Positions 36,795 through 37,685 of a stretch of DNA of 64,000 bases are shown here, piece by piece; within the stretch, counting starts at the first letter, position 1, and every line of letters starts with the position of its first letter. Below the pieces are notes generated by a model. It searched no databases, was not told where the DNA came from, and was given only the letters and a program-made list of their open reading frames with translations. Made by a program: the position numbers and the translations under genes. The stretch is from the NCBI RefSeq assembly GCF_016820655.1, contig NZ_WSFT01000031.1:1-64000 (forward strand), in the 5' to 3' direction. The stretch comes from Anaeromonas frigoriresistens. Its GTDB lineage: Bacteria > Bacillota > Clostridia > Tissierellales > SIT17.

Positions 36795-37064
36795 TTAGCC
36801 AAGTAGTGGTTGAACAAATAATAAGATAATTGCAATAACTAGACCATAGATACCTGTAGTCTCTGCAACTGCCTGACCTAAAATCATTGTTCTTATTACA
36901 TCACCTTGTGCCTCTGGCTGTCTACCAACTGCCTCTGCTGCTTTACCTGCTGCATATCCCTGTCCAATACCAGGACCGATACCTGCTATCATTGCAAGTC
37001 CTGCACCTATTGCTGATGCTGCTAATATTAATTCTCTTCCTGTAATAGCTGTTTGTGGATCCAT
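36795..37064 (-). CDS. atpE: ATP synthase c subunit, 8-kDa type with sodium motif
   Basis: An 89-residue helical hairpin that builds the membrane rotor ring. The loop reads [16 protein letters not shown]. The ion-binding residues Gln35 (GPGIGQG), Glu68 and Thr69 (VAETTG) match the Na+-binding set Gln-Glu-Ser/Thr known from Ilyobacter tartaricus. A Na+-driven rotor is therefore likely, though only biochemistry can prove it. It lies 69 bases after a second, double-length c gene. Confidence 0.97.
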
Positions 37065-37133
37065 TATAAAATTCCTCCTCTTTTTTACGTTAAAATTTTA
37101 ATATATTAATTATAAATAAATATTACTTTTAAA

Positions 37134-37685
37134 CTATGTTAAAAATGGGTTTGCAAACATTAATATTATAGCAATTATCAAGGAATATATCCCTGTAGTC
37201 TGTGCTACTGCTTGCCCCAGGATCATTGTTCTAACAATAGTTGATTGATAATTGGGTCTTTTTCCAACAGCTTCTGTTGCCTTTCCAGCTGCATACCCCT
37301 GTCCTATAGCAGGCCCAATTCCACCTATCATTGAAAGTCCTGCACCTATTGCTGATGCTGATATTATAAGTCCTACTCCTGTAACTGTTATTAATGGATT
37401 TGAGAATAATAATATCAACGCTATAACCAATGCTAATATACCAGAGGTTTCAGCTACTGCTGCTCCTAAAAGCATAACGAAGGTTATCTGTCTACTGTTT
37501 TCGGGGGTCTTTCCTACTGCTTCTGCTGCCTTACCGGCTGCATATCCTTGGCCTATCCCAGGGCCTATACCAGCTATCATTGCAGCTCCTATACCTATAG
37601 CCGAACCTGCTAGTATTAAGTCCTTTGTTTCAAAAGTTAATAGCCAATTTATAAAATCTAATATAAAATTTCCTGTTCCTCCCAA
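37134..37685 (-). CDS. atpE: ATP synthase c subunit, fused double hairpin (V-type-like)
   Basis: A 183-residue protein with four membrane helices made of two c hairpins in tandem. Hairpin 1 has Gln46, Glu79 and Thr80 (AAVAETSG), a complete Na+ site. Hairpin 2 has Gln129 but Gln162 in place of the glutamate (GQAVAQTTG), so it cannot carry the ion in the usual way. Such a one-site double c subunit inside an F-type operon is known from Acetobacterium woodii, where it mixes with 8-kDa c subunits. TTG start eight bases after GGAGG. Confidence 0.95.

Follow-up and report, generated by a model that had tools for sequence, protein, structure and literature searches.

A putative Na+-coupled, hybrid-rotor ATP synthase of Anaeromonas frigoriresistens with an apparently replaced Fo block

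In 2015, Brandt and Mueller (Biol Chem 396:1031) reportedly described about twelve anaerobes in which one operon carries one F-type and one V-type c subunit, and a 2014 paper by Matthies is said to deal with the F/V hybrid rotor of Acetobacterium woodii (4bem). In the PDB listing of 4bem, nine chains are c2 and one is c1, which makes 11 hairpins and 10 carboxylates. The ion cost of each ATP follows from the number of sites per turn, which matters most for cells at the energy limit. The A. woodii ring is credited with 10 Na+ sites and 3.3 Na+ per ATP (PMC7793690, excerpt), and 11 hairpins are given for those F-type Na+ rings that had been characterised up to 2013 (PMC3692424, excerpt). Clostridium aceticum, whose ATPase is reported to be Na+-dependent, displays the gene order atpB-E1-E2, a fused c1 with the ion-site motif Q..ET followed by Q..QT, one 8-kDa c with Q..ET and no third c gene (PMC7911925, excerpt).

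The window analysed here (64,000 nucleotides, positions 1 to 64,000 of contig NZ_WSFT01000031.1 of Anaeromonas frigoriresistens, assembly GCF_016820655.1) carries on its minus strand a complete F-type atp operon, as read from open reading frames and Pfam matches. The encoded system is most likely a further hybrid-rotor ATP synthase, of a type already known from a few anaerobes, and adds one more operon to the hybrid rotors of Brandt and Mueller. The first two genes, ATPase_gene1 (AtpZ-like, PF09527; 38856..39083) and the gene of the ATP synthase I chain (AtpI-like, PF03899; 38447..38875), are followed by atpB (subunit a; 37741..38412) and by atpE1 (37134..37685), which encodes a fused rotor subunit, c1, of 183 amino acids and two hairpins. 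This gene begins with TTG, nine bases downstream of AGGAGG, a consensus match to a ribosome-binding site (37695..37700). The next gene, atpE2 (36795..37064), begins with ATG and encodes a single-hairpin 8-kDa c of 89 amino acids. Then come atpF (subunit b; 36200..36712), atpH (subunit delta, PF00213; 35646..36212), atpA (alpha; 34135..35649), atpG (gamma; 33244..34104), atpD (beta; 31810..33216) and atpC (epsilon; 31389..31793), all on the minus strand. The Rfam search gave no match at gathering scores. Directly upstream of the operon (39287-40633 and 40664-41988) lie genes for a short-chain fatty acid transporter (PF02667) and for two putative CoA-transferase subunits.

Two kinds of c gene, single-hairpin and fused-hairpin, thus share the F-type operon, PF00137 matching once in c and twice in c1. 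The original prediction had placed here an 8-kDa c with Gln35, Glu68 and Thr69, which is exact to the residue, and a four-helix fused c with Gln162 instead of glutamate in its second hairpin, which is equally exact (codon CAG, 37200..37202, minus strand). The first hairpin of c1 retains the carboxylate, with Gln46, Glu79 (codon GAA, 37449..37451, minus strand) and Thr80; the second carries Gln129, Gln162 and Thr163. The Na+ ligand motif, i.e. Gln in helix 1 and Glu-Thr/Ser in helix 2, is therefore present in the loaded hairpins.

The best solved relative of c1 is the c1 of A. woodii (4bem_J, E 2.1e-64), with which it shares 116 of 175 aligned residues (66%), including the sequence AVAQT common to both second hairpins. 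The two systems have in common an orthologous c1, the Glu-to-Gln change and an 8-kDa c with a full Na+ motif, so that the predicted likeness to A. woodii is borne out by c1 orthology and by the 4bem ring. The suspicion that gene order may differ proved wrong, the order being the same (PMC7911925, excerpt). A true difference lies in the single 8-kDa gene of the window versus two identical genes (E2, E3) in A. woodii, but it is no novelty, this layout being already published for C. aceticum (PMC7911925, excerpt). The operon matches that of C. aceticum in gene order, in the number of c genes and in their motifs; the difference lies in the species, and Na+ dependence of the ATPase was measured in C. 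aceticum. Furthermore, the position four residues upstream of the ion-site Glu is Ala in A. woodii c and Gln in the window c. The V-type K subunit of Enterococcus hirae (2bl2) shares with c1 its four helices and one ion site per two hairpins; however, its carboxylate, Glu139, belongs to the second hairpin (PMC2359735, excerpt), whereas that of c1 belongs to the first hairpin and the operon is F-type. Globally, the original observation is real and its interpretation is largely sound, with partial support.

The reading preferred here, with a probability of about 0.8, is that the operon encodes an F1Fo ATP synthase that is coupled to Na+ and whose rotor is a hybrid of the A. woodii/C. aceticum kind, its Fo block having apparently been replaced from an unsampled donor while the F1 genes stayed native. 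One or a few copies of c1 would join a ring whose other subunits are 8-kDa c, each c1 contributing two hairpins and a single ion site. With the A. woodii composition (nine c, one c1) as a model, 10 sites would be spread over 11 hairpins, i.e. 3.3 Na+ per ATP versus 3.7; the mixed rotor with a lost site and fewer ion sites per hairpin that had been predicted is backed by c1 orthology and by the solved A. woodii ring. The joint incorporation of c and c1 into one ring, its stoichiometry and Na+ as coupling ion are inferred. In Ilyobacter tartaricus, one subunit supplies Glu65 and Gln32 to the site, and the next supplies Ser66 and a backbone carbonyl (PMC2359735, excerpt). With this geometry, Thr of the second hairpin of c1 would complete the ion site in the adjacent hairpin, and the uncharged Gln would pass the stator as a blank step, which may be why this hairpin drops the carboxylate and keeps Thr. 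The genome also encodes RnfC (above the family cut-off) and two OAD-beta proteins, OAD-beta being a subunit of a Na+-pumping decarboxylase, and a V_ATPase_I match is absent from it; these features are in keeping with Na+ energetics. The operon is F-type, not V/A-type.

The genes atpB-c1-c-atpF-atpH (Fo block, about 35650..38500, minus strand, with approximate edges drawn from sliding DNA identity) display a history unlike that of the rest of the operon. In pairwise comparisons, congener G002 is the nearest relative for the two upstream genes (71 and 73% identity), atpA (93%) and atpD (95%), and for atpG the window is level with two congeners (83 and 84%). In contrast, identity to G002 is 68, 88 and 55% for atpB, c and atpF, relatives of other families being nearer, and 57% for atpH, to which three other relatives are equally close. 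At the DNA level, identity to G002 is 75-77% upstream and drops to 60-65% where atpB starts; it is 78-81% where atpB ends and 63-71% across atpF and the greater part of atpH, before rising to 85-89% in atpA and 81-91% beyond. Within the 3' part of atpB, the window-congener identity (78-81%) resembles that of the congeners among themselves (77-83%), and this part of the gene cannot be told apart from theirs. At 30 to 38% GC, the block resembles its flanks in composition.

Trees of 18 operons (L115, L116 and L122 left out) point in the same direction. The AtpZ-like and AtpI-like proteins join the window with G002 (99/95; 37/89 for the genus as a whole), and the alpha, gamma and beta subunits, which follow the genus, place the window inside it (100/100) and with G002 (93/88). 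In the atpB+F+H tree, however, the three congeners form a clade that excludes the window (99/98); grouping the window with G002 is rejected (p-AU 5.8e-5), as is a genus including the window (p 0.007). Earlier tests with c included, on 21 operons, gave p 0.00076 for the window with G002 and a marginal 0.041 for the genus with the window; the flank tree of these 21 operons contains an artefact branch, L116, whose contig ends in atpA. These p values are somewhat flattering because the block was chosen after the identities had been seen. For c1, neither a grouping of the window with family f3 (p-AU 0.302) nor one with G008 (0.612) was rejected, the forced tree with G008 being 5.49 log units better than the free tree. 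The block, or parts of it, appears to have been replaced by recombination from an unsampled donor, whereas the F1 genes appear native. The genome has one atpB and two c genes only, and no second copy of the native Fo genes was found in it.

An alternative is that the hybrid Fo was ancestral in the genus, was retained here and was replaced in the congeners, no transfer having occurred into the window species. Indeed, c1 is scattered across the order, with a match at E 1e-35 or better in 9 of 249 genomes (two matches stop at contig ends), and seems to have been lost within other groups. The c1-less operons of G035 (L124, family f3) and G326 (L175, family f67) fall within groups of fused-c relatives in the tree of alpha subunits, and c1 was therefore probably lost in these two lineages. 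In the genus, c1 occurs in one of four genomes and in none of the three congeners compared. However, the atpB+F+H genes of these congeners form the single clade mentioned above, and in the 21-operon set their block joins L122, a long branch, as their flanking genes do. As block and flanks have the same neighbour, the Fo of the congeners fits the species history better than that of the window, and an ancestral hybrid Fo is considered unlikely. In 17 operons without c1, no c1 remnant was evident and no second hairpin was found, atpB and the c hairpin being separated by 54 to 185 bases. The mosaic signal may also come from a chimeric contig, the genome being 99.15% complete with 3.57% contamination.

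Another alternative is that c1 is made but is rarely or never included in the ring, the working rotor being a plain c11 of 8-kDa c. Several peculiarities of the window c1 go in this direction. Its branch is long in the c1 tree, from which L115 and L116 were dropped as duplicates (0.45 versus a median of 0.068). Residue 126 (37308-37310), in the glycine motif of hairpin 2 and three residues before Gln129, is Ala, whereas Gly is found at this position in 97 of the 98 other last hairpins. In I. tartaricus, ring size changes when the glycine motif is altered (PMC3692424, excerpt). Owing to the long branch and to this Ala, c1 could be loosely constrained. Its start codon is TTG, versus ATG for the 8-kDa c, and this c belongs to the type that relatives lacking c1 have. 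The window c has Gln at residue 64, four before Glu68; in 92 fused-c operons, this residue is Ala (89 cases), Ser (one) or Cys (one), and Gln in the window only, whereas Gln is found in 15 of 18 operons without c1. From this unusual Gln, the window c1 and 8-kDa c may not be long co-adapted partners. The residue is nevertheless treated as a lineage marker only: elsewhere in the class, genomes without c1 show Cys, Asp or Ala besides Gln, and a comparison of c1 presence with this residue in four independent pairs gave a sign test p of 1.

Against a plain c11, the c1 frame is intact over its 183 amino acids and retains all its features, including Gln162 and Thr163, a good ribosome-binding site precedes it and A. 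woodii does incorporate its c1. A start other than ATG is also common, being found in 33 of 100 fused c genes, and a weak start would fit one copy per ring. The 100 genes, window included, start with ATG (67), TTG (22), GTG (10) and ATT (one, probably a miscall), codons being assigned by a simple rule to related rows in which one genome is entered twice (L032, L116) and L026 and L165 resemble one species. Single c genes start with ATG in all of 102 cases. A weak start codon as a device setting a low share of c1 is hinted at by these counts, although two thirds of the fused genes use ATG. Ribosome profiling in A. woodii indicates that the ATP synthase subunits are translated in proportion to their copy number under autotrophic conditions and less so on fructose (PMC8407422, excerpt). 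Altogether, a rotor devoid of c1 is held to be quite improbable, and incorporation of c1 remains the preferred reading. The structure predicted for c1 from its sequence alone was of poor quality (mean pLDDT 57) and was left unused.

The ancestry of c1 itself was addressed with a 108-hairpin tree. It comprises A. woodii, 11 c1-less operons and 30 selected fused-c operons, from which only genes of two hairpins were taken. The first hairpins form one clade (32 rows, 100/97) and the second hairpins another (32 rows, 100/93), the window and A. woodii being inside both. The window 8-kDa c clusters with the c of relatives lacking c1 (10 rows, 99/98). The two clades suggest that the two-hairpin fused c has a single origin in the set tested, the window c1 thus being orthologous, hairpin by hairpin, to that of A. 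woodii. A separate duplication of the window's own 8-kDa gene, with convergent Gln, would agree with the three c1-less congeners, but it is rejected by the position of the window hairpins inside the two clades, apart from the window c, and is very improbable indeed unless the tree is badly misled.

A survey of fused c subunits in the best 80 of 440 relatives from genome_contigs, picked by their likeness to the window c1, revealed c hairpins in all 80 loci, with 84 fused genes. Among these, 72 have two hairpins, six have three (L030, L033, L037, L058, L062, L064), four have four (L045, L046, L056, L059) and two have five (L053, and L026, which runs off its contig). The first hairpin carries Q..ET in all 84, and the last one Q..QT or Q..QS in 83, the exception being an ORF cut at a contig end; every complete fused gene seen thus keeps Glu in its first hairpin and Gln in its last. 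As Gln is found in the last hairpin of 83 of 84 genes, Gln162 of the window is neither a sequencing error nor a chance oddity. One or more single-hairpin c genes with Q..ET or Q..ES accompany the fused gene in 79 of 80 loci, among them L041, where the stretch detected is partial and shows ET only.

In a class sample of 391 genomes, less biased than loci chosen by c1 likeness, fused c was found in 13, of which eight, spanning four families (f40, f59, f61 and f67), encode a fused c of three or more hairpins. Genome G122 encodes six hairpins in one frame of 538 amino acids (QET/QQT/QET/QQT/QET/QQT). Locus L165 has six hairpins, and L166-L172 have three or four. The patterns of these multi-hairpin subunits include QET/QQT/QQT, QET/QQT/QET/QQT and QET/QET/QQT, and the carriers of three hairpins include an isolate, Acidaminobacter hydrogenoformans DSM 2784 (L037). 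If 11 hairpins are kept and one fused subunit enters each ring, as the arithmetic assumes, 3.33, 3.0 or 2.67 ions would be needed per ATP, suggesting that fused c subunits of three to six hairpins may provide graded ion/ATP gearings.

To our knowledge, no fused c of three to six hairpins is mentioned in the abstract of Brandt and Mueller 2015. The titles and first abstract lines of the open PMC articles listed contain nothing on F-type c subunits of this length, and the full texts of Matthies 2014 and of Brandt and Mueller 2015 may mention them. An A-type triplication and a 13-hairpin protein of Methanopyrus are already known (PMC2359735, excerpt).

A broader proposal, to which somewhat less than even odds are given, is that the gear ratio of the ATP synthase of anaerobic Clostridia is both swappable and gradable, fused c subunits of two to six hairpins moving it, in an 11-hairpin ring, from 3.67 to 3.3, 3.0 or 2.7 ions per ATP while Fo moves and F1 stays. 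If this is true, the window species would be a case of Fo block exchange caught inside an atp operon. The comparison itself suggests that the two-hairpin design was dispersed through loss and, probably, exchange of Fo blocks, and that several groups separately extended it to three, four, five or six hairpins. The apparent replacement of Fo and the ladder of two- to six-hairpin subunits go beyond the known kind and might interest specialists. The longer fused c subunits would also offer natural enzymes for probing the relation between site number and ion/ATP ratio.

Some loci display other combinations of rotor genes. In two Marinisporobacter bins, a three-hairpin fused c (L062:1231-2169, L064:1349-2164) lies about 1.8 kb before a two-hairpin c1 and a single c, so that each region holds three rotor genes. 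In L003, L005 and L173, two differing two-hairpin fused c genes in tandem are followed by one single-hairpin c, and G326 has three single c genes in place of c1. The records of L058 (Lutibacter sp. B2) and L045 (delta proteobacterium ML8_F1) look misnamed or contaminated, because their alpha subunits group with those of Clostridia.
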